From NCBI GenBank assembly GCA_030267565.1, contig BRXU01000061.1:62001-126000 (forward strand): a stretch of 64,000 nucleotides of DNA, given 5' to 3'. The position numbers were made by a program, and so were the translations under genes. This stretch comes from Pleodorina starrii (Eukaryota > Chlorophyta > Chlorophyceae > Chlamydomonadales > Volvocaceae). The first letter of the stretch is position 1. Each line of letters starts with the position of its first letter. Below, piece after piece: positions 20,277 through 62,152 of the stretch. The notes under the pieces are model-generated. The model worked only from the letters and a program-made list of their open reading frames with translations, was not told the origin of the DNA and did not search any database.

Positions 20277-21805
20277 TTGAATGCCACTAACCGAAGTGCG
20301 GTTGCAGGGGGAGCTGCCTACGAGCCGCTAGGCTGGCGCTAGCGGGCGTGTATGAATGCGTGCATGGATGCGTGCATGTGCATGTGCAAGTGCATGTGCA
20401 AGCCGGGTGGTTGGTTCCCGGCCCGGTGGGGGTTGTGCGCGGTGCATGCAGGTGCGTGTTCTAGGACGAAACCCCGCTCGTGTGTAGGAGGCTCCTTTCG
20501 TTCGGTACTTGCGTTTCCATTTTAGTCGTGCATACGGCACGATGCATGTACAGCGTGTCATGGCAGACGGCCGCAATGGTGATACGGAATGTCGGTTTAC
20601 GGGCAAGCGTGCAATAGGCGTCCTCTGTGGCGCGGTCGTGCGGCAGGCAGGGCGCGCGTGGGGTTAGGTGTCGGTGGTCCGTATGGCGCATTGCACAGCA
20701 GTGCCACAACAGCTCAAGTAAGGAACGCTGCTGCTGCTGGCGTGTTGCCTAGTATTTTTTACTCGCCGAACGATGGCGACGTGCCGGCTTGTGTATTGGA
20801 TGACTGTGATCAGCAGCGCACATGCATTGCGACCGCTAGCTCGCTGGTGTGTAGATAGGCCGTTGAGGATCAGATGAAGAATCGCGGACGGTCTTCGTTC
20901 CTCCGCGGGTGTGCTTGGTTACGGACTGCATGCGGAGTGGGGTACCGTAGCTGCTGAAAGACGCAGACCCGCCGCAGAGAGCGCCGCTGCTGAAACGTTG
21001 TTGGGTGCTGGAAGTTCGGCGAGCCGCGGAGCCGCTTGCTATGGGTCCGCCTTCGGTGTGGTGCCTATGTCGCTTGTGTAAAAGGAACACGTGGGCCCAC
21101 GCACTCGCTGCTGGTCTGCATGCATCCCTCCAACAAACAAACACCCCTCAAACCCAACCGCCAACCCCTAGACACCTGTACTCTCCACCGCAACCCTATT
21201 CTGGGTGCTGCTGGGGATTGCTACGGCGCGTACCCGGAACATTTCGAACGAACAGGCGGAACGAACACAGCATCTGATCGTTATGAATACGACGAAGTAT
21301 TTGTAAAAGGACTATCATGTTGTATATTATGTCCAGCAGACGTGTCACTTGACTGCTGCAAGTTGAGCCGTAAGGAGCCGCTCGCCCTGCTGCTCCAAAT
21401 GTACCGTTATAATCATCGTCGCGATCGTAGTATTGTGTACCTACATTGTGCGCCTAATAACATGAAGTTTTTTTTCAAATGCAATATGGCAATAAGACGT
21501 ATTATCGGGTTTTAATCAATCGGGGAATGTGTCAGGGTGTGTCGAAGCCGTCCTCGACACAAGGAAACCCTTAGAAGCAGGCCAAACAATTTTCTCACAG
21601 CTTCGCATGTATAGAACTTCTATGCTGAGAACCTACATCAACGTATTGTTTGAGGTTTATAACAGCCTGCGCGATGCCCTGTCATATTATCACGTAGGCT
21701 GAATAACCTACAGAGCTAGCAGCAATATCAGGCTCACTACAAAGTATGGTGAATGAAAATTGCTGAGATTGCAAGGAGAGACACACTCGGCGTCGGGCTC
21801 GTAGC
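20277..21805. other. 3' UTR and intergenic DNA after the Cys-rich gene
   Basis: No further gene recognised. TGTAA motifs at 21077-21081 and about 21302 are candidate polyadenylation sites for the upstream gene. Sequence from 21240 onwards is AT-richer and precedes the start codon of the NLR-like gene at 21806, so it is a likely promoter region. Confidence 0.5.
21077..21081 (+). promoter_or_regulatory. Candidate polyadenylation signal (TGTAA)
   Basis: First TGTAA on the + strand after the Cys-rich gene, giving a 3' UTR of about 0.8 kb, typical for volvocine algae. Assigned by motif and position. Confidence 0.45.
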
Positions 21806-24800
21806 ATGGGCTGCGGTCAGAGCAATGCTGCCGCTGCCGCAGCGGCCAAGGAGCGGCCCGTACCAAACGACGCAGCGGTGGAATCGCAAGGCCCCAATCT
21901 TTTGGCGAAAGATGTTGCAAAGGTAAACACCGGCCCAGGCCATGTGTCGTACGTGTGACTTGCGTGCCAGCAAAGAGACGCGCCAAATCCACTCAGCTCC
22001 GTCCAAGCATGCATGTCCCATCCAGCACACCTGCATCTGCGAACGATGGCCCCCCCGCAGAAAATCGCTCTCGCTGGATTCGAGAACATCATCGCGGCAG
22101 TCGGCCAGATGAAGGATCTGCTGCCGCCTCCAGGTAACGCAACCCCCCAAGTACGGCAAAACTTCCCAATCCCAGAATCCTGGGGTTGTGCTTCTGCACT
22201 TCTGCACATCATGCGACCAAGCGATCACGCAGGATTCGACCACCGCTGTCCGGACCTCCGCGGGAGACACACCTGCATGTGCACCGGCTTGGGACGAGCA
22301 AACATACATATGCGGGCCACGCACCACACGCGTTCTCTCCGCTAGCATGGATCTCAGATGGATTTCGCACCATACTGAATAAAGTAATGCGCCGCAGGCG
22401 GACCGGCGGCTGCCGTACTGCTGGACGTCATCTCTGTCGTACGGGGCGCCGTGGCTCACCGCCAGAACTTGGAGGACCTGGCCACACGCGCCGCCAACCT
22501 GATGCGTGTCGTACAGCTCAACCAGGAGGCGCTGCAGGTAGCTAGGTGGGAACCAACCGACATACCGGTACCAACCAACACACCAACCAACTAACGGTGT
22601 GGTGCGAAGGGGAACACTGTACTGAAACGGGGTGGGGACGGAAAGGGAGGGGCACGTGCCTAATCCGTACACGTGTGTATGCACCTGACAGCACATACAC
22701 GCCATACCGTATCTCCGACACGCGCGCGCGCTCGCCGCCCGCCGCGCCAAAGCAAACACTCGCACAGCCAGGGCCACACACATCCTCACACACGCACACA
22801 CACGCACACACACGCACGCGCGCGGGAGCACCCAAATGAACCCGTTACAACTTCCGTCGTACTACCGTCCGTATTTTACCGTATTTCACCGCCCCGTCGC
22901 GACGGTGCACCCCTACCTGCAGGCCGGCAACACGTACAAGACGATCCTCGACAATTTCGTCAAATGCCTGGAACGCATCCGCCAGTTTGCGCTCGAGTAC
23001 AGCGGGTCGGGCTGGCTGATGCGCATCTGGTGCACTCTCACCGACGGGGAGCAGTACGACGAATTGGTGGGGGAGCTTCAGGCGCTGGTGGCGGATGCGT
23101 CGTTGAGCGTGGGGCTGGACACCAGCAACCAACTGACAGCGGCCCGCAGGGAGATCCAGGAGCTGGCGGCGTATGTCAGGTCGCAGCCCACCTTCAAGGC
23201 AAGGACGGGAATTGCCCAGTTGGGAGTTGGGACGGACGGACGGGCTGGACGGACGGACACGGACGGGGGGAGACGGGGGGAGGGTCCCCACCACAGACGG
23301 GGGGAGACGGGGGGAGACGGGGGGATTGCCAGGATACGTGCGTACGTAAGTGAAGGGCGGCGGGCGGGCACCGGTGCGCACGTGCCAGCGTTTCGTCCTG
23401 CGGCCCCACCCGCTAAATGCCGTAAAACGCTGTACACAAGACAAAGTGCACTAAACAAACCTGATGGGCCGCCGATGCCGTCGGCTGCTGTGGCGTGTAC
23501 GGCAGGACGAGTCCGCGGCGCTGCGGAGTTTGGTTTCGGAGCTGGGCGGGCCGCAGGAGGTGGTCAAGGACCGGACCAAGATGGAGCGTGTACGGCAGCA
23601 CCTGGGCGCCGGCAGCCAGCTGACTCTCACCATGGTAGGTAGGTAGGTACGGCAGGAGTCGTACAACCCCATCGCCGGCTGCTGCTGCTGCTGCACGTTT
23701 TTTCCTAGCCCTTTTGCACCGGCCTGGTGCACGAGAGGCGGCGCCAAGGTAATTCCGGCGGGCGCTCTTGGCTGCTTTGCCGCATGCCTGGCATGGTCGG
23801 CATGGTCGGCCCCCCAAAGCCGTGTGTGTGACGCACTTGAAGCGGAGACCCTAGGGGGCTTCCCTTCACGGTAGGTGGAGCTGCGTACCTGTTGCGCCCT
23901 CCCTGGCCACACGCTGAAGTGTCCGGTTGCTCTGTCCCTCGTGTTGCTTCCCTTGCATTGCCTCCTCCCGCGCGCTGCGTCCGCAGCCAGCCCCACTGCC
24001 ACTCATCCATCCCCACTGCCCACTCCCGCATGCGGGCAATCATGCCTCCGTGCCCCGGCGCCGGCTCGACCGCCCCATCGTCCCCGCCTTCCTCCCTGCA
24101 CGCGTCCTGCCCCCTTCCCTAATCAACCGTTAACCGCCAACCGCACGCAAACCACCAACCGCGTTTCAACCGTTTCAACCGCCAACTGCAGCTGGGCCAG
24201 GCCATCGAGATCCTTAACGCCAACAACGAGGAGGGCCCCCACTCCAACATCCGCAACTCGGTGCTCCGCGTCTTCTGGCGCAAAGTCATCAAGTTCGAAC
24301 TGCGCGTGCCCTGGCACGAGTTTTGGATGGTCTTCCCAGAGCGCCTCGCAGACGTGCCCCTGCCGCCCACCCAGGTGGCGGACCTGACAATGCTGCTGGG
24401 CAGCGCCGCCGCGCACCAGCTATTCAAGTGCCAGATTGAGGACTACGAGGACCCCGCCTCGCTCAGCGTCTTCGAGCTGCGTCGCGTGCCGGAAAAGGCG
24501 GACATCGTGTTATGCATCAAGGTACGGCATGAGGGGTACGGCATGCACTACGGCATGTGTTCGCGAAGCGTGCCGCCAGTCAGGGGAACGACGCCCAGAG
24601 GGTGCCAGGGGCGACACGAGCTGCGGCCGGCCGGCAGAGTATCCCCGCTCCCCCTTGCTCAGCAGGGGTGCGGGGGCCATCTGAGCCCCACAACTGAGCC
24701 CCACAACTTTCCCTGAGGGGCCCTTGGCCGGTGCCTGTGTGTTGTGTGTAGTGCACGTCCTGGCGGAAAAGACGTTGCGTCTTGCGTTGTGTCAATCTGA

Positions 24801-27429
24801 TGTCGCCCTGGCGGGAAGGAAGGTGGCTTGCGTTACCGTTATGTCGCTCTGATGCGCCTTCATTATGTGTACAGGACATTTTGGAAGAAGCCTCCGAGAC
24901 GAGTGCGGCGCTGTGCCAGCTTCCGGCGCTGGATTCCGTGTACGAGCAGTACGGCGGCCGGGAAGCAGAAGCGAAGGAGCTGTCGCAGTGGCTTCAGAAA
25001 CCGGGCAGTCGGGTGGCTGCGGTGGTGGCCGACGGCGGCATGGGCAAGACGTGCCTGGCTGTGGACGTGGCGTGGCGACTGTGGCGCTGCAAGGTCGCCT
25101 CCGCGGGTGCTCTGTACGTCGACTGCCGCGCGGCTTTCTCGCGCGAGGCTCTGATGATGCGGCTGCGGGCGGCTGCGGGCCTCAGCGGCGGAGACCAGGG
25201 GGGCATGGGAGCCCTGGTGGCGGCCCTTGGCAAGATGTGCTCCTCGGACAAGCTGGGCGGCTGTCTGCTGGTGCTGCTGGATAACGCCGAGGACCCCGCA
25301 GCGGCGGACGGTGGCGCAGCCCTGGCGGAAATCCTCGCGCAGCTGGTTATGGCGAGTGCCAGGCTGCAGCTTCTGGTGACTTCCCGTGTGGATGTGGCGG
25401 TCCAACACATGCCGCCGCCGCACACCCACCGGCTGCAGCCCCTCAGCGCCGCCGTTGCGGGCCCGCTGGTGCAGCAGATCGCAAAGGGGGTGCTGACGGG
25501 GGAGGAGGCGCGAGCTGTGGCCACCGCTTGCGGCTGCGTGCCCCTCGTGCTGCGGCTGGTTTCGGAGGCGCTGGTGGCGGGCCGCCTGGCGCTGGAGGAC
25601 GTTCAGGAGGCGGTGGCGGGCCGAGGCGGCGGCGCGGCGGAAGGGGAAGCGGCTGCAGCTGTGGCTGGCAGCGGAGAGGCTGCGGCAGGGGAGCAGCGGG
25701 AAGTGACGGTTATGTTCGTTGACATGGTCATCCGGTCGTTGCCCGCTGCCATGAAAAAGGTGGCGATGCAGGTGGCCGCGTTCTCGGGTGTGCTTACTGC
25801 CGGCTCGGCGGCGGTGGTGATGGGCGTGGGGCCCTCCTCCGAGCAGGAGGTGCGGACGCAGCTGGCGGGTCTTCACCGCCTGAGTGTGGTGCTGCAACAC
25901 GGAGACGACGCGTTTGTGATGCACACCCATGTCCGTGACGTGGCGCGAAGGCTGCTGACGGAAGAGGCGCCGCCGCCGCTGCGTACGGCAGTACGGGAGC
26001 GCTTCGCGCGGTACGCTGTGGGGCTGCTGGCGCGCTGGCAGAAGCTGCACGAAGCCAACGCGCTCAAGCTCATGGCGACAGAGGTGGCGGCGCAGTGGCC
26101 GGATGTGGAGCAATTCCTGGCGGATGTGGCGGGAGAGGCGGCGGCGGGCGCTCGGCCGCTGCTGCCGGGGGCGGGGCTGCTGCCCCTGAGTGCGCAGTTC
26201 CTTCAGGAGACGTCGCTCCTAGCCATACTGGGCAGCAGCGACTTCCTGTACGCCGTTGGCAACGCGTGGATGAGTCCCCAGTACCTGACACTGACACTGC
26301 GGCTGGTGGAGGCGACAGAGGCACCCGCGGCAGAGTCCGAGTCTGAGTCGGAGTCGACGGGCCGGGAGCGGCGGCTGTCGTTGGCGGCTGCGCTGCTGGT
26401 GCGCTGCGAGGCTCTCATGTATACGGGGGAGTATGTGGAGAGTGAGGGGCTGGCGGCGAGGGCGGTGGCACAGTACGAGCAGCTTCGAGGCCGCGACAGT
26501 GTGGAGTGCGCGGCGGCGCTGCACCTGCACGCCAGCTGCCTAGCGGGTCAGGGTCGGGGGGCGGAGGCTGTGCCTCTGTATCGCGAGGCTCTGGCGGTGC
26601 GGGGGGCGGCGCTGGGTCCCCACCACAAGGCCACCACCGCCACCATCACGCACCTGGCAATGCAGCTGTCAATGGAGGGACAGCACGGAGAAGCGGAGGC
26701 CATGTACAGGTGGGGGCGTCCCGGAGTGGCTGGGATGGGGTGGCTAGGAGACCGTAGGGTTTGTGATGGAAGTTTACTCGGATTGAAGCGGCTCTCGTGT
26801 GCCAGTGGCTTACCTATACCTGCTCTCGTGTGCCTGGGTAGCGGTCTTGGCATCTCTCGTATTGGGGCCTGCAGCGCTGCGTTCCTTTGACCTTGTGCCC
26901 TCCGCACCCACCCATGCCACCCTCCGCCCCCCCCTCTCTCTCGCTTGTCCCTTCTGCCTTCTCCTGTCCCTCCGCCCCTCAGCCCCAACCCCTCCGCCCC
27001 TCCGTCCAACCCCTCCGCCCCTCCGTCCACCCCTCCGCCCCCAGGCAAGTGCTGGAAGCCTCGCAGCGCACTTTCGGCCCCTCCCACAACCTGACCGCCC
27101 AGGCCCTGTCCAACCTGGCCGGCTGCCTGCACGAGCTGGGCAAGCTGACGGAGGCTGAGGCGCTGTATCGCCGGGCGCTGGACGTGTATCGGGACACGGT
27201 GGGGCCGCAGCACCGGCAGGTGGCGTTCACGCTGGTGGGACTGGCGGCGGTGGCGCGGGAGGCCGGGGCGGATCTGGAGGCCGTGGAGGGGTTGTATCGG
27301 GAGGCGCTGGAGGTGTGTCGTACCGCGCTGGGTCCCCGGCACCCGCACTCGCAGATGACGCTGAGGTCGCTTCAGGAGCTCCTGAGGGAGAGGGGCAAGG
27401 GGCAGGAGGCGGAGGAGCTGACGATCTAG
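21806..27429 (+). CDS. NLR-like STAND ATPase: N-terminal helical bundle, NB-ARC, TPR repeats
   Basis: Exons 21806-21922, 22061-22133, 22398-22537, 22923-23198, 23506-23634, 24192-24521, 24875-26709 and 27045-27429 sum to exactly 1,095 codons (1,094 residues). The N terminus MGCGQSN is a myristoylation/palmitoylation-type signal. Residues about 40-200 are helical with a pattern like the HeLo/MLKL N-terminal bundle (AVLLDVISVVRGAVAHRQNL, then FVKCLERIRQFALEYSGSG). Residues 246-355 form an unrecognised Trp-rich module. NB-ARC: P-loop VADGGMGKTCLA (about 405-416), Walker B LLVLLDNAED, sensor LLVTSR, GCVPLVLRLVSEAL (GLPL-like), and an MHD-like VMHTHVRDVARRLL. Three or more kinesin-light-chain-type TPRs (for example LTEAEALYRRALDVYRDTVG) follow. 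The intron after exon 4 appears to be GC-AG. Such proteins act as ligand-gated oligomerising switches in immunity or cell death; that role is inferred here. Confidence 0.85.
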
Positions 27430-27446
27430 GGGGCTGGCGAAGGGGG
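24900..27446 (+). repeat. Left arm of a large inverted repeat (NB-ARC-TPR segment)
   Basis: This segment is repeated in reverse orientation at about 28604-31118. Near-identity runs through the NB-ARC exon, the intervening intron (identical over long stretches near 26710-26920, with indels in its pyrimidine-rich part) and the last exon, and ends about 17 bases after the stop codon. The arm begins about 25 bases inside the NB-ARC exon. Exact identity was judged by eye. Confidence 0.9.
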
Positions 27447-28376
27447 GTGCAGGTGGCGGGGCGGGGCGGGGGAATCGGGAAGGGGACGGAGCAAGGGATG
27501 CCGAAGGGTGTCAGAGAGCCCCGCAGGCTGCTAGGGTCTCTCCGCGCCCCCCGGCCCATGGCCCCCGGCCCCCCGGAGTTTGAAGTGGAATTTGAAAGCA
27601 GGGAGGGAGGCAGCCGAAGCACCACGCAGGGGGCGCTGTTGCTGTCGGCTGGCAGCTGTGTGAACTCGACATGTCGCAATTGTTTGTGTGCTCAGATCTT
27701 GAGATCAGATTGAAAGCGTGCGGACCACCTGAAACAAAGGCGAGTGGTGGCGCGCAGTGATGCGGGTGGGACCTGACGGAACGGGCGGTGTGTGAGACAT
27801 TGCATCCCAGGGCATCCGAGACGTCCCGAGAAAAGGGGCGGCCGAGGGCCGACGAGTTTCATGGGATGCGTGGTGACGTGGACAGACACCCACATCGGTA
27901 AAAACAGCCCTCGCACGGGGAAATTGCATCCCGGGTGCGAAATCGCGCCGGTCGCCGCACATGTCGCCGCCAGGCTGCTAACCGCGCGAGGTGCATCCCG
28001 GGCCTTTCCATACCGTAGCTACGTTTGCACAGCCGCCACCCAACATGCACACAGCTGCCGAAGCAGGAGGTAATACGGTACCGACCAAGGCCGGCAACAC
28101 AAGGTCGCGCAAACGCACGGTACCACAGAGAACGTCCTTTGGTGGTTCGGTGGTTCACCGAAGCGAAGCCGCGGAGGCTGCCACCCACGCGCCTCAGGTC
28201 ACGCACCCACTGCCACGCGGCAAATACTTCGCACCAGTACGGCCCCCTAGATGCCCACCTACTTCCCACTCTTAAAGACGAGTTCGCTTGCCGCTTGCAA
28301 CAGAGCAAGCCCTCGACCTTTTGACGTGGCCCTTTATCTCTGAGAGATAGGACAACTGACAAGGTGTGGGATCGAA

Positions 28377-28464
28377 ACCATCTCACAAGCCTCCACAAGG
28401 ATCTCTGCTCAGGAGCCCGGACCATCTCACAAGCCTCCACAAGGATCTCTGCTCAGGAGCCCGG
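28377..28464. repeat. 44-bp perfect tandem duplication
   Basis: Two adjacent identical 44-bp units (28377-28420 and 28421-28464), beginning ACCATCTCACAAGCC and ending GGAGCCCGG, in the loop of the inverted repeat. A sign of recent local rearrangement. Confidence 0.9.
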
Positions 28465-28483
28465 ACCCAACTCGTCTACACCT

Positions 28484-28488: not shown

Positions 28489-28603
28489 CACAGGCCAGGA
28501 TTCCGCCACCCCGCCTCTCCCTGCCGCCCTTTCCCGATTCCGCCACCCCTGCTTCCCCCTTCTGCCGCCTCCCCCTGCCGCCTCCTCGTCCCCCCGCCCA
28601 GCC

Positions 28604-31118
28604 ACCTTCGCCAGCCCCCTAGATCGTCAGCTCCTCCGCCTCCTGCCCCTTGCCCCTCTCCCTCAGGAGCTCCTGAAGCGACCTCAGCGTCATCTGCGAG
28701 TGCGGGTGCCGGGGACCCAGCGCGGTACGACACACCTCCAGCGCCTCCCGATACAACCCCTCCACGGCCTCCAGATCCGCCCCGGCCTCCCGCGCCACCG
28801 CCGCCAACCCCACCAGCGTGAACGCCACCTGCCGGTGCTGCGGCCCCACCGTGTCCCGATACACGTCCAGCGCCCGGCGATACAGCGCCTCGGCCTCCGT
28901 CAGCTTGCCCAGCTCGTGCAGGCAGCCGGCCAGGTTGGACAGGGCCTGGGCGGTCAGGTTGTGGGAGGGGCCGAAAGTGCGCTGCGAGGCATCCAGCACT
29001 TGCCTGGGGGCGGAGGGGGTGGGCGGAGGGGCGGAGGGGTTGGGCAGGAGGGGAGGGACAGGAGAAGGCAGCAGGGGCGATGGGAGACGGAGGGTGGCAT
29101 GGGTGGGTGCGGAGGGCACAAGGTCAAAGGAACGCAGCGCTGCAGGCCCCAATACGAGAGATGCCAAGACCGCTACCCAGGCACACGAGAGCAGGTATAG
29201 GTAAGCCACTGGCACACGAGAGCCGCTTCAATCCGAGTAAACTTCCATCACAAACCCTACGGTCTCCTAGCCACCCCATCCCAGCCACTCCGGGACGCCC
29301 CCACCTGTACATGGCCTCCGCTTCTCCGTGCTGTCCCTCCATTGACAGCTGCATTGCCAGGTGCGTGATGGTGGCGGTGGTGGCCTTGTGGTGGGGACCC
29401 AGCGCCGCCCCCCGCACCGCCAGAGCCTCGCGATACAGAGGCACAGCCTCCGCCCCCCGACCCTGACCCGCTAGGCAGCTGGCGTGCAGGTGCAGCGCCG
29501 CCGCGCACTCCACACTGTCGCGGCCTCGAAGCTGCTCGTACTGCGCCACCGCCCTCGCCGCCAGCCCCTCACTCTCCACATACTCCCCCGTGTACATGAG
29601 AGCCTCGCAGCGCACCAGCAGCGCAGCCGCGAACGCCAGCCGCCGCTCCCGGCCCGTCGACTCCGACTCCGACTCCGACTCCGACTCTGCCGCGGGTGCC
29701 TCTGTCGCCTCCACCAGCCGCAGTGTCAGCGTCAGGTACTGGGGACTCATCCACGCGTTGCCAACGGCGTACAGGAAGTCGCTGCTGCCCAGTATGGCTA
29801 GGAGCGACGTCTCCTGAAGGAACTGCGCACTCAGGGGCAGCAGCCCCGCCCCCGGCAGCAGCGGCCGAGCGCCCGCCGCCGCCGCATCTCCCGCCACATC
29901 CGCCAGGAGTTGCTCCACATCCGGCCACTGCGCCGCCACCTCCGTCGCCATGAGCTTGAGCGCGTTGGCTTCGTGCAGCTTCTGCCAGCGCGCCAGCAGC
30001 CCCACAGCGTACCGCGCGAAGCGCTCCCGTACTGCCGTACGCAGCGGCGGCGGCGCCTCCTCCGCCAGCAGCCTTCGCGCCACGTCACGGACATGGGTGT
30101 GCATCACAAACGCGTCGTCTCCGTGTTGCAGCACCACACTCAGGCGGTGAAGACCCGCCAGCTGCGTCCGCACCTCCTGCTCGGAGGAGGGCCCCACGCC
30201 CATCACCACCGCCGCCGAGCCGGCAGTAAGCACACCCGAGAACGCGGCCACCTGCATCGCCACCTTTTTCATGGCAGCGGGCAACGACCGGATGACCATG
30301 TCAACGAACATAACCGTCACTTCCCGCTGCTCCCCTGCCGCAGCCTCTCCGCTGCCAGCCACAGCTGCAGCCGCTTCCCCTTCCGCCGCGCCGCCGCCTC
30401 GGCCCGCCACCGCCTCCTGAACGTCCTCCAGCGCCAGGCGGCCCGCCACCAGCGCCTCCGAAACCAGCCGCAGCACGAGGGGCACGCAGCCGCAAGCGGT
30501 GGCCACAGCTCGCGCCTCCTCCCCCGTCAGCACCCCCTTTGCGATCTGCTGCACCAGCGGGCCCGCAACGGCGGCGCTGAGGGGCTGCAGCCGGTGGGTG
30601 TGCGGCGGCGGCATGTGTTGGACCGCCACCTCCACACGCGAAGTCACCAGAAGCTGCAGCCTGGCACTCGCCATAACCAGCTGCGCGAGGATTTCCGCCA
30701 GGGCTGCGCCACCGTCCGCCGCTGCGGGGTCCTCCGCGTTATCCAGCACCACCAGCAGACAGCCGCCCAGCTTGTCCGAGGAACACATCTTGCCAAGGGC
30801 CGCCGCCAGGGCTTCCATGCCCCCCTGGTCTCCGCCGCTGAGGCCCGCAGCCGCCCGCAGCCGCATCACCAGAGCCTCGCGCGAGAAAGCCGCGCGGCAG
30901 TCGACGTACAAAGCACCCGCGGAGGCGGCCCTGCAGCGCCACAGTCGCCACGCCACGTCCACGGCCAGGCACGTCTTGCCCATGCCGCCGTCGGCCACCA
31001 CCGCAGCCACCCGACTGCCCGGTTTCTGAAGCCACTGCGACAGCTCCTGCGCTTCTGCTTCCCGGCCGCCGTACTGCTCGTACACGGAATCCAGCTCCGG
31101 AAGCTGACACAGCGCTGC
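28604..31118 (-). repeat. Right arm of the large inverted repeat (NB-ARC-TPR segment)
   Basis: Reverse-complement copy of about 24900-27446. Differences from the left arm are few: scattered substitutions (for example Leu for Phe before LADVAG), an extra Ser-Glu pair in the Ser-Glu run, one extra Ala after LADVAGDAA, and length changes in the pyrimidine-rich part of the intron. Upstream of 31118 the two loci show no visible similarity. Confidence 0.9.
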
Positions 31119-31142
31119 GCTGGGCTCCGCAGATTCCTCCAT
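28619..31142 (-). CDS. Second NB-ARC-TPR protein, lacking the N-terminal helical bundle
   Basis: Minus-strand paralogue of the NLR-like gene. Two exons are clear: 31142-29305 and 29003-28619, joined across the same intron and in the same phase as the other copy; together they give 741 codons with Met at 31142. All NB-ARC motifs are intact: ADGGMGKTCLA, LLVVLDNAED, LLVTSR, GCVPLVLRL and VMHTHVRDVARRLL, followed by the TPR region. The exon begins exactly at a splice-acceptor-like CTGCAG with ATG next. Either translation starts there (MEESAEPSAALC), or an upstream exon exists that I could not find, or the frame extends to a Met at 31286. No HeLo-like exons are visible on this strand between 31.2 and 34.3 kb. 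It may be a truncated but functional NB-ARC-TPR protein or a young pseudogene; no stop or frameshift is seen. Confidence 0.75.
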
Positions 31143-34308: not shown

Positions 34309-37300
34309 TCACCGTGGCGAAATGTTGACGGTCATGGTCGCCGGCACCGACGCCGGCGTAGAGGATACCTGCGGCATCACCACGCCGTTGCCGTTGCCGT
34401 TACCGTTACCGTTGCCGTTACCGTTGCCGTTACCGTTGGCGGTTGCGTACGACGGCGAGCTGACGGGCAACAGGCCGGACAGACCCGCCTCCGCCAGAAT
34501 GGTCTTGGTGTCTGCGTCGTCCTTGAGGGTGGCCATCACATCGGCCTGGATGCGGTTGCAGATGACGTCGAGCGGCAGGATGCTGCGGAGGAGGACGAGG
34601 GCGAGTGGGAAGGGGGAGGGGCGGGAGCGGGTGAGAGGGAAGGGGGAGGAAAGGCGGGAAGTTAGCGTGAGAACAGGCAGGAACGGTGGAGGGTGAAGCA
34701 GGATCGAGGCTGGTGCGGCGACGGCTGAAGATGCCGGCAGGAAGGTCGGTGTCGTGTCTGCTACACACCCGCGCGGGCCCCCTTGAGATGTGATCCATCC
34801 TTCCGGTGGTGGTGCCCAATTTTGAACCCACGGGACCCAGACCCTTCCTACGGGCTTAATAGCGCCCCGCTCTCACTCCACACACACCCGCCAGTTTCTC
34901 GCCCGCGTTCCACCCGCCCCGCCCCAGATCCGCCTCGCCCCAGACCCCGCCCCGCCCACTCACCCGAACGGCTCCTCGCACTGCACTCCGATCTCCTCGA
35001 TGCCACACAGCACCGCCGCGATGCCGGTGCACACCGGTACGACAGCATACCCGCACGTGCCGTACAGCGCAAAGGGCAGCAGCGTCAGCCACGTGAACAG
35101 GAAGCGCGCAGTGTGGCGGGTGTAGGAGACGGGGATGGGCGCGCGCAGCAGCCGCTCGCAGCCTCCCAGCACATCGTGGAAGAAGGTGAGGTTGGTGCTC
35201 ATCTGCATCTGGTGGATGGAGCTCATGGGGACCGACTGGATGATCTGTGGGCGGTGAGGAAGTGAGGGGCGATGGTGGGTGGCAGTGGGATTTAGGTTGG
35301 GGGCGGTGAGTGGGCGGGATGGAGAAACACATTGAGCGGGCCGGGGAGGAGGCGGGGGCAGGATGGCGGCCTCACCCCTGACCTGCGGCCTCACCCCTCA
35401 CCCGCATCCCGCATCCCGTCCCGCCCGGCATACACCCGCACCCGCACCCGCTTCCCTCAGCCCCCTGCAGCCCCAACCTATCGTTCAGCAACTCGCAAAA
35501 ATAACGCCAACGTCCGCTCCGTCACTCTCCCGCACAGTCCCAACCCCACACCCCACACCCCATCCCTTCGGGGCTCCATCTTACCACCCCGGCCCCCGCC
35601 CCGCACCCTGCCCGATCGTTCCCTACCCACCTGGCTGATTGCGTGGATGGCCCTCACGGGGCGGTGCTGGCTCTTGGCCAACATATCCAGCTCCGCGGGT
35701 GTGAGGATGTTCTTCAGCTCGCTCTCCAGAGTCACCTCGGGCTGGAAGTGGATGCGCAGGGCGCGAGCAAACGCAACCACCCAGCGGGCCAGCGCCTTCT
35801 TGGCCTCAACCTGGGGGCTCGATCGAAGATCCAGGACCGAGAGTGGCAGTGGGGCAGTGGGGTAGGGGGCAGTGCACGTCAGGGCGCGCCGGTGGGGTGC
35901 CGAGCAGCAGCAGCAGCTACTGCGGGTACGTCGCGCCCCCACCTCCCTCCTCTCCCGGGTCCGTGAGTGTTGTCCCTCCCAAGTCCCGAGTCCCCCGCGC
36001 CGGAGGGCCTCCCTCTCCACCACCAACTGGCTGTCTGACTGACTGACTGAGTGACTGACCTGGTCGTCCGGGAAGCAGGTGGCTCCCTGACGCATGATGT
36101 CGCGGCTGCGGTTCAGCAGGCCACCCCACATCTTGCGTGCTTCATCCCACCGCCCGTAGCTGGTGTTGGTGCGGAACACCAGCAGCAGAGACAGCGCGAC
36201 GGAGGTGTTGGTGATGAAGGCGGAGCAGGCGGCGTTGGGCGTGAGGCTGGGGAAGCCGTCGGGCAGCATGTGCTGGTCGAGGGCGGTGTTGTAGGCCGCC
36301 AGGGAGGTGGACACGACGCCCACCCACAGGATGGAGGGCAGCGCGTTCTGGATGATGTGGGACCTGCGGGGGAAGGGGGAGGGGAGGGGAAGGGAGGAAG
36401 GCGAGGGTGAGGAGGGCGAGGTGGGTAGGAAGAAGCGGAGATTAGGGTTGTCAGCGAGGAAGGGAGGGGCAGGCGGGGAGCGGTGGTGCCCAGAGGAGGT
36501 TCGGGGTGGTGGAGCTAGGGGGGCTGGAGGCCAGGAGCGCAGGAGGTTCGGGATGGCGGGGCCATGAAGTAGCGAGGAGATTCAGGCACGAGAAATGGGG
36601 CTTTGTGGCATTCGTGTGGAAGGACGCTGGTCGCGCAGCAAGCCGAACTCCACCACGATACAAAGTCCGTTGAATGCAAAGCCGGCCTTATGATGCGAGG
36701 AATACGAGCGCCTTGGGCCCGACGGTAATCGGGTACGACAGCGAAAGCAGTTGAAGTCGGCACCGACAGCCCTGAAACTATTTGCCTAAACCAGTGCCAC
36801 CAGCGGATCCATTTGAAAAGATGGCACACACATGGCACGTGTTCCCTCCCTTCGGACTCTACAATAGGCTTGTGACGCACTTACTGGGGAATGGTGAACA
36901 GCCGCCTCATGAGACGGTACTGGTTGCGATGGGTTTGCCATTGCGGGAAGTCGTAGACCTGTGGAAACAACACGGGGGGGAGCCATCGTTATGGGCTCCT
37001 CTTCGAGTCTGACGATCGCGTTCAGGGTAGAAGCCCAAAGGATCGCGAACATCGTCCAGTCACTACGCAGGCAACTAAACTATCTAAGCATACCACCCGG
37101 GAAGGTCTATGCGCTGCCTAGCCGCAGGGCCCCATATCGCGAACAGAACGGGTCCATGCGAACGGCGAGCGTTTTGTTCTATGACCATTATCCATACATA
37201 TGATGCTTGTATACAAGGTAATTGTCATGCAAATGCACTAACCGTTCGGAAGTACTTGCGGGCCTCCTCGCTGCGAGGCACTGGGGTAACCGTGCCTGCT

Positions 37301-40887: not shown

Positions 40888-62152
<21,265 letters not shown>

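Follow-up and report, generated by a model that had tools for sequence, protein, structure and literature searches.

A candidate membrane-anchored NLR-type receptor with an MLKL-like helical bundle in the volvocine alga Pleodorina starrii

In fungi, MLKL_NTD/HeLo-like NLRs, including the basidiomycete BaMLKL, combine an NB-ARC or NACHT switch with tetratricopeptide repeats (TPRs), ankyrin or WD repeats, according to the accessible part of PMC9815663, where the pore action of MLKL and HeLo is also described, as is a short helix that MLKLs and HeLo-like proteins have in common between helices 3 and 4. In algae, the accessible parts of the literature report NB-TPR and NB-WD40 proteins (PMC7145615), TIR-NLRs of Chromochloris (PMC7145615, PMC10952240) and an APAF1_C/WD40 gene of Ulva (PMC8891106). 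Here, a stretch of 64,000 nucleotides of the colonial green alga Pleodorina starrii (contig BRXU01000061.1, positions 62,001 to 126,000; “the window”) was analyzed, and a gene on its forward strand (21806-27429) was found to join an acylation-type start, a helical bundle resembling that of MLKL, a Cbl-type EF-hand-like domain, an NB-ARC module and C-terminal TPRs in one protein. We read its product as a volvocine-algal STAND/NLR-type receptor with a membrane-anchored MLKL-like effector, and assign this reading, mechanism included, a probability of about 0.55.

A comparison with the described systems revealed the following likenesses and differences. The fungal receptors also have an MLKL-type bundle, a switch and repeats, whereas the MGC start and the Cbl-type domain between bundle and switch set the algal protein apart from the forms in the accessible text. 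The likeness to animal MLKL lies in the bundle sequence, but the algal gene has no kinase-like domain and carries effector and switch on one chain. The plant coiled-coil (CC) NLR helpers NRC2/NRC4 and Apaf-1 share the NB-ARC switch fold; they differ in having leucine-rich repeats (LRRs) or WD40 repeats instead of TPRs, MHD instead of MHT, and other N-terminal domains. The N-terminal region of c-Cbl and Cbl-b is similar in its EF-hand-like pair, by sequence and fold, behind a helical bundle, and kinesin light chain and nephrocystin-3 are similar in their TPRs only, the rest of the algal protein being different. None of SH2, RING or LRR was among the 24 Pfam families listed for the window protein. 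It was therefore not considered a Cbl, since NB-ARC and TPRs follow without SH2 or RING, nor a plant NLR in the strict sense, since it has TPRs and no LRRs. The published algal NB-ARC proteins share the NB-TPR combination, and no MLKL-type or Cbl-type N-terminus was described in the accessible text. Because such NB-TPR proteins are already in print, the novelty lies in the N-terminus. Volvox, Chlamydomonas and Gonium are not mentioned in the accessible part of PMC7145615, nor are TPR, Volvox, Chlamydomonas and kinesin light chain in PMC4773052, and the Chromochloris TIR-NLRs alone are named as chlorophyte immune receptors in the accessible part of PMC10952240. A search for volvocine or Chlamydomonas NB-ARC/MLKL receptors yielded no report, and none was among the titles listed by broader searches; the coverage excluded most subscription papers and all bioRxiv preprints, so that a prior description may exist.

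Gene model and acylation-type start

The gene consisted of eight exons that together gave 3,285 nt in phase without an internal stop, bearing out the 1,094-residue model of the initial annotation. Six of the seven introns had GT-AG borders and intron 4 had GC-AG, so that all seven ended in AG, and an in-frame TGA was located at 21764, upstream of the ATG. Exon 1 (21806-21922, residues 1-39) encoded the acylation motif and a low-complexity linker. The bundle began with its first helix in exon 2 (22061-22133, residues 40-63), which matched the Astrephomene homologue P0002, and continued through exon 3 (22398-22537, residues 64-110), matched in both P0002 and the Volvox africanus protein P0001, and exon 4 (22923-23198, residues 111-202), which had the GC donor; the MLKL_N match covered residues 86-186. 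Exon 5 (23506-23634, residues 203-245) formed a helical linker leading to the Cbl-type EF-hand-like pair of exon 6 (24192-24521, residues 246-355). The NB-ARC module (about 24917-26044) and the first TPRs were encoded by exon 7 (24875-26709, residues 356-967), and the final TPRs and the stop by exon 8 (27045-27429). A Pfam scan of the whole protein gave TPR_12 at E 9.7e-35 over four stretches, NB-ARC at 16.1 bits (cut-off 23.5) and MLKL_N at 13.9 bits (cut-off 27).

Two independently annotated proteins (annotations, not transcripts) carried the same fusion. Agub_g10329 of Astrephomene (P0002, 860 aa, partial) also started with MGCGQS, was 70% identical over residues 1-400 and stayed in register with the window gene through all the exons it covered, and Vafri_10927 of V. 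africanus (P0001, 1,031 aa) began within exon 2 and reached the end of the TPRs. The join between exons 1-6 and exon 7 is therefore not due to chance, and the initial view of a single gene linking the N-terminal region to NB-ARC-TPR was correct. The same fused order was found in the paralogues P0038, P0043, P0041, P0042 and P0044.

The start MGCGQS (21806-21823, forward strand) contained Gly2 and Ser6 of an N-myristoylation-type motif and Cys3 as a candidate palmitoylation site; we take MGCxxS to be a motif of the N-myristoylation/palmitoylation type. The paralogues PLESTB_000816200 (P0038, contig 9) and PLESTB_001337900 (P0043, contig 22) started with MGCRPS and MGCGAS, respectively. Among the 13 bundle-bearing proteins (the window protein, P0001, P0002, P0009, P0038-P0044, P0048 and P0049), five started with M-G-x-x-x-S and seven had other annotated starts, while the partial protein P0039 showed M-G-x-x-x-S at Met13. 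The Met-Gly-Cys motif noted initially was confirmed, and this type of start recurred in paralogues and in Astrephomene P0002.

The MLKL-like bundle and the Cbl-type domain

Residues ~45-200 resemble the MLKL bundle, a specific relation by sequence in which all scores stay below the curated cut-off. The Pfam family MLKL_N matched 10 of the 13 bundle segments (best E 5e-6), with 17.2 to 26.5 bits and 17.4 bits for the window segment. These segments (alignment A3) came from 12 proteins; P0049, with part of the bundle missing, and P0045, P0046, P0047, P0050 and P0051, with most or all of it missing, were left out, and bit scores were re-read for 10 of the 13. In a scan of full-length proteins, MLKL_N was found at the bundle in all six (E 4.5e-5 to 0.032; P0039 and P0009 left out). 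The A3 profile was compared with 177,635 PDB sequences, and the best seven of the ten matches were MLKL (E 0.006 to 0.1). A longer N-terminal profile (A4, 11 segments of 10 proteins) yielded 38 PDB matches at E <= 10, namely seven MLKL chains, which fell on the bundle (best E 0.0017; MLKL residues about 30-128), and 31 CBL/CBL-B chains, which aligned to the middle domain (best E 0.47). The two sets amount to two hits, since each is in effect one protein family. When the 11 A4 rows were reversed as a control, three unrelated PDB matches appeared (best E 0.016, cysteinyl-tRNA synthetase), none of them MLKL or CBL, and MLKL_N matched none of the 11 in Pfam. Some unrelated Pfam families were also matched by the true rows, each by a single member, with E as low as 0.0026. 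A profile comparison with one MLKL stretch gave a P-value of 1.1e-4 and a probability of 57%. The initial annotation had proposed a HeLo/MLKL-type bundle; the MLKL half stood by sequence, and HeLo proper was dropped, as PF14479 matched only 1 of the 13 segments (E 0.097). NCBIfam families were likewise set aside, giving scattered unrelated matches on A3 (best E 0.0019, in 2 of the 13).

Structure prediction was consistent with a helical bundle. The full-length model of P0002, built with 21 sequences, had a mean predicted local distance difference test score (pLDDT) of 78.5 and a predicted template modelling score of 0.63. Residues 47-196 were helical, and the blocks of the bundle (residues 51-200) had pLDDT values of 62-89. 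A short helix (141-147, block pLDDT 62) was predicted between two long helices, similar to the one that separates helices 3 and 4 in the fungal proteins. When the N-terminal piece was folded alone, two helices merged into one. A Foldseek search with this N-terminal model returned no match at E <= 0.001, and the two best were Cbl-b (E 0.36). MLKL, HeLo, RPW8 and the ZAR1 CC were not among the 50 fold matches listed, which excludes nothing, and those listed for the bundle were generic. A helical bundle was predicted, with low confidence when folded alone, and its assignment to the MLKL/HeLo fold expected in the initial annotation is tentative. The fold search with the full-length model was taken up by NB-ARC matches and was no test of the N-terminus.

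Residues ~248-355 formed a Cbl EF-hand-like domain (Cbl_N2) by both sequence and predicted fold, which had been overlooked initially. The second EF match was weak, and the 12-residue loop of the domain in the window gene was DYEDPASLSVFE. Alignment A7 comprised 15 segments of 14 proteins, without P0001 and P0009. In P0039 of Tetrabaena the unit of bundle and EF-hand-like domain occurred twice in tandem. A SAM-like segment preceded the bundle in P0038, P0043, P0039, P0041, P0044 and P0048, and the window gene had none; such segments were also seen on the fetched stretches L042 (reverse strand, 2262) and L037 (785). The SAM assignment was weak, with SAM_2 in one of six paralogues (E 0.045) and no SAM chain among nine PDB matches.

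Several observations weigh against a membrane-active MLKL-like effector. No MLKL_N score reached the 27-bit cut-off, even at the best 26.5 bits, the two Tetrabaena segments had no MLKL_N match in the Pfam scan of bundle segments, and NB-ARC scored below its own cut-off in all proteins scored. The seven MLKL chains are the same protein and therefore count as one hit, and the best reversed control was just about tenfold weaker than the MLKL match. Folded alone, the N-terminal piece had a mean pLDDT of 65.2, with 52-71 in the bundle blocks, and the 50 fold matches listed for it were TTYH channels, designed or other bundles and Cbl, without MLKL. The lipid-binding surface of MLKL is basic, whereas the window bundle had a net charge of -4, and in the 11 A4 rows the first 170 residues carried between -6 and +5. 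A conserved LP.PG turn was located at residue 59 in the window protein and at about 167-291 in P0038, P0039, P0043 and P0048; this internal position, together with the doubled unit of P0039, is ill-suited to a free N-terminal pore helix. The internal bundle behind a SAM-like segment in several paralogues also weakens a simple mechanism in which an N-terminal helix inserts.

The same region could instead serve as a Cbl-like docking platform, in which bundle and EF-hand-like domain recruit partners to the membrane without permeabilizing it. In Cbl, a helical bundle is followed by an EF-hand-like domain, and the algal domain is of the Cbl type and also lies behind a helical bundle. The bundle is not basic, and in relatives it is internal or even doubled, as a platform would allow. 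However, the profile matches of the bundle itself were to MLKL, the best stretch of every CBL row in the A4 search was the EF-hand-like part rather than the four-helix part of Cbl, and NB-ARC follows in place of an SH2-like domain or RING. We regard the docking platform as unlikely, though it is the strongest of the rival explanations.

Switch, repeats, family and the inverted copy

The Walker A motif GGMGKT was located at 25034-25051 (forward strand), and two of its glycines and the lysine were invariant in the 21 rows of alignment A2 (21 of the 52 proteins found). At the position of the MHD motif familiar from NB-ARC switches, the window gene had MHT (25919-25927, forward strand), and the rows of alignment A1 had MHT, MHS, MHM, MHM and MHM. 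Of the NB-ARC with MHD-like motif in the initial annotation, the P-loop and the MH were present and the aspartate was absent. Residues ~364-860 of P0002 had a predicted fold like the switches of Apaf-1 and NRC1. By Walker A and the modelled NBD-ARC1-winged helix fold, an NB-ARC module of the Apaf-1/NRC kind is present. The Pfam NB-ARC model, run against the own genome, picked up two matches on contig 29 and missed the window gene, so that it is too narrow here. The C-terminal superstructure-forming repeats are TPRs by sequence; profile A1 matched the TPRs of kinesin light chain in the PDB (best E 6.1e-35, KLC1), which agreed with the TPR_12 result and with the initial description as kinesin-light-chain-like. 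In P0048 (Astrephomene Agub_g13396; Pfam scan) and P0049 (Gonium GPECTOR_93g618; precomputed Pfam), ankyrin repeats replaced the TPRs behind the same N-terminal module and switch.

The N-terminal 355 residues were searched against the own genome (136 Mb) at E <= 10, which gave 17 matches, six of them to the gene itself. The other 11 were on contigs 3, 9, 12, 22 and 30, four of them with E > 0.01. From this search, the NB-ARC search and the fetched stretches, we grouped at least six further loci in P. starrii, on contigs 3, 9, 22 and 30 and two on contig 12, the weakest being that on contig 3 (best E 0.0037). Over the region used in the search, the contig 9 paralogue and PLESTB_000816200 were 100% identical. 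About 8,000 candidates, preselected by shared exact words, were scored in each database search, and relatives came to light in eight species outside Pleodorina: V. africanus, V. carteri, V. reticuliferus, Astrephomene, Gonium, Tetrabaena, Edaphochlamys and Chlamydomonas schloesseri. In V. carteri, an NB-ARC-TPR protein alone turned up. Family members carry the database names “kinesin light chain” and “nephrocystin-3”, which look wrong.

A second copy, also overlooked initially, was found tail to tail with the gene. Copy B (31142-28619, reverse strand) is an inverted version of exons 7-8 without the effector, with exon 1 at 29305-31142, its own ATG at 31142, and exon 2 at 28619-29003. The arms of the 2.6 kb inverted repeat (24896-27485 forward, 28556-31127 reverse) were 96.2% identical over 2,606 columns, and the homology began inside exon 7. 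The product of copy B was identical to PLESTB_001862200 in 740 of 740 residues. No convincing further N-terminal module was found in the window by tblastn with residues 1-375, whose best match apart from the two copies had E 0.053. In the spacer, a perfect 44-bp tandem duplication was seen at 28377-28467. Annotations of copy-B-like NB-ARC-TPR proteins exist for V. africanus and V. carteri and, as partial proteins, for V. reticuliferus and Astrephomene (P0005, P0006, P0007 and P0008). The two V. africanus proteins stem from two annotation sets (Vafri and VaNZ11), and the Astrephomene genes 10329 and 10331, whose contigs are equal in length, presumably lie on one contig. Copies A and B were 97.6% identical within Pleodorina, 95.3% within V. 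africanus and 97.8% within Astrephomene, versus 66-74% between these species, and the tree paired A with B by species (Pleodorina 100/100, Astrephomene 100/100, V. africanus 90/91). An old A/B pair homogenized by gene conversion is a simpler explanation than three independent truncated duplications. The Pleodorina copies differed by 22 synonymous and 19 nonsynonymous changes, with a ratio of nonsynonymous to synonymous rates (dN/dS) of 0.32; in the PLESTF annotation set (P0004), the B protein had the A residue at two of these 19 differences.

Elsewhere in the window, an adjoining frame (35478-36578, reverse strand) matched a bestrophin-type channel (Bestrophin_2, E 6.6e-29). A strong A-over-T skew (0.363) was present at 54001-56000 over glutamine-rich frames, where an open reading frame of 722 aa (54896-57064) had no Pfam match at E <= 0.01. 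Rfam gave no match.

Proposed mechanism and its meaning

The layout of a cell-death receptor suggested by the initial annotation was partly supported, by the start, by the MLKL-type bundle at the sequence level, by the predicted Apaf-1/NRC-like fold of the switch and by the TPRs; in several paralogues the bundle was internal rather than N-terminal. In the receptor that we propose, the start would be myristoylated and palmitoylated and would hold the protein at the membrane. The TPRs may hold the switch shut in its ADP-bound state and release it on sensing a ligand or a change in a partner. Nucleotide exchange would then lead to oligomerization and bring the bundles together at the membrane, which they might permeabilize, or at which they might nucleate a signal ending in cell death. 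Copy B, which has no N-terminal module, could co-assemble with copy A as a sensor or regulator.

A broader combination of ideas is speculative, and we think it rather improbable as a whole. It would place the family in a separate volvocine NLR lineage with an effector made of an acyl-anchored MLKL-type bundle and a Cbl-type EF domain, and would derive MLKL bundles and the Cbl adaptor from one ancient bundle-EF module. The EF domain, through its DYEDPASLSVFE loop, would set the release of the bundle, perhaps with calcium, once the NB-ARC opens, and the gene-converted partner without effector would be a matched sensor.

A STAND switch for developmental or stress signaling, unrelated to immunity or death and kept for colony biology, would suit a family common to volvocine and Chlamydomonas-type algae and the purifying selection acting on the two copies (dN/dS 0.32). 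It would also suit the window, in which no defense gene was noticed, although no search aimed at one was made. We consider it improbable, because the architecture and the swapping of repeats are NLR-like and because the unicellular C. schloesseri and Edaphochlamys have members, so that colony life is not required. An artefact in which exons 1-6 are a separate gene and NB-ARC-TPR alone is real, as in copy B and the four copy-B-like records, was rejected as hardly credible, since the independent annotations P0001 and P0002 carry the fusion, five paralogues have the same order, and all seven introns end in AG with the frame kept.

Few descriptions of immune receptors exist for chlorophytes. The MLKL-like effector family of the proposed receptor would extend the fungal plan of bundle, switch and repeats to genetically workable green algae, a plan hidden in databases under the names of kinesin light chain and nephrocystin-3. 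An N-terminus that is both MLKL-like and Cbl-like would give a direct handle on the relation of executioner bundles to Cbl. If the broader view is true, the bundle-EF pair in Cbl and in this family would mean that MLKL executioner bundles and Cbl share an ancient signaling module.

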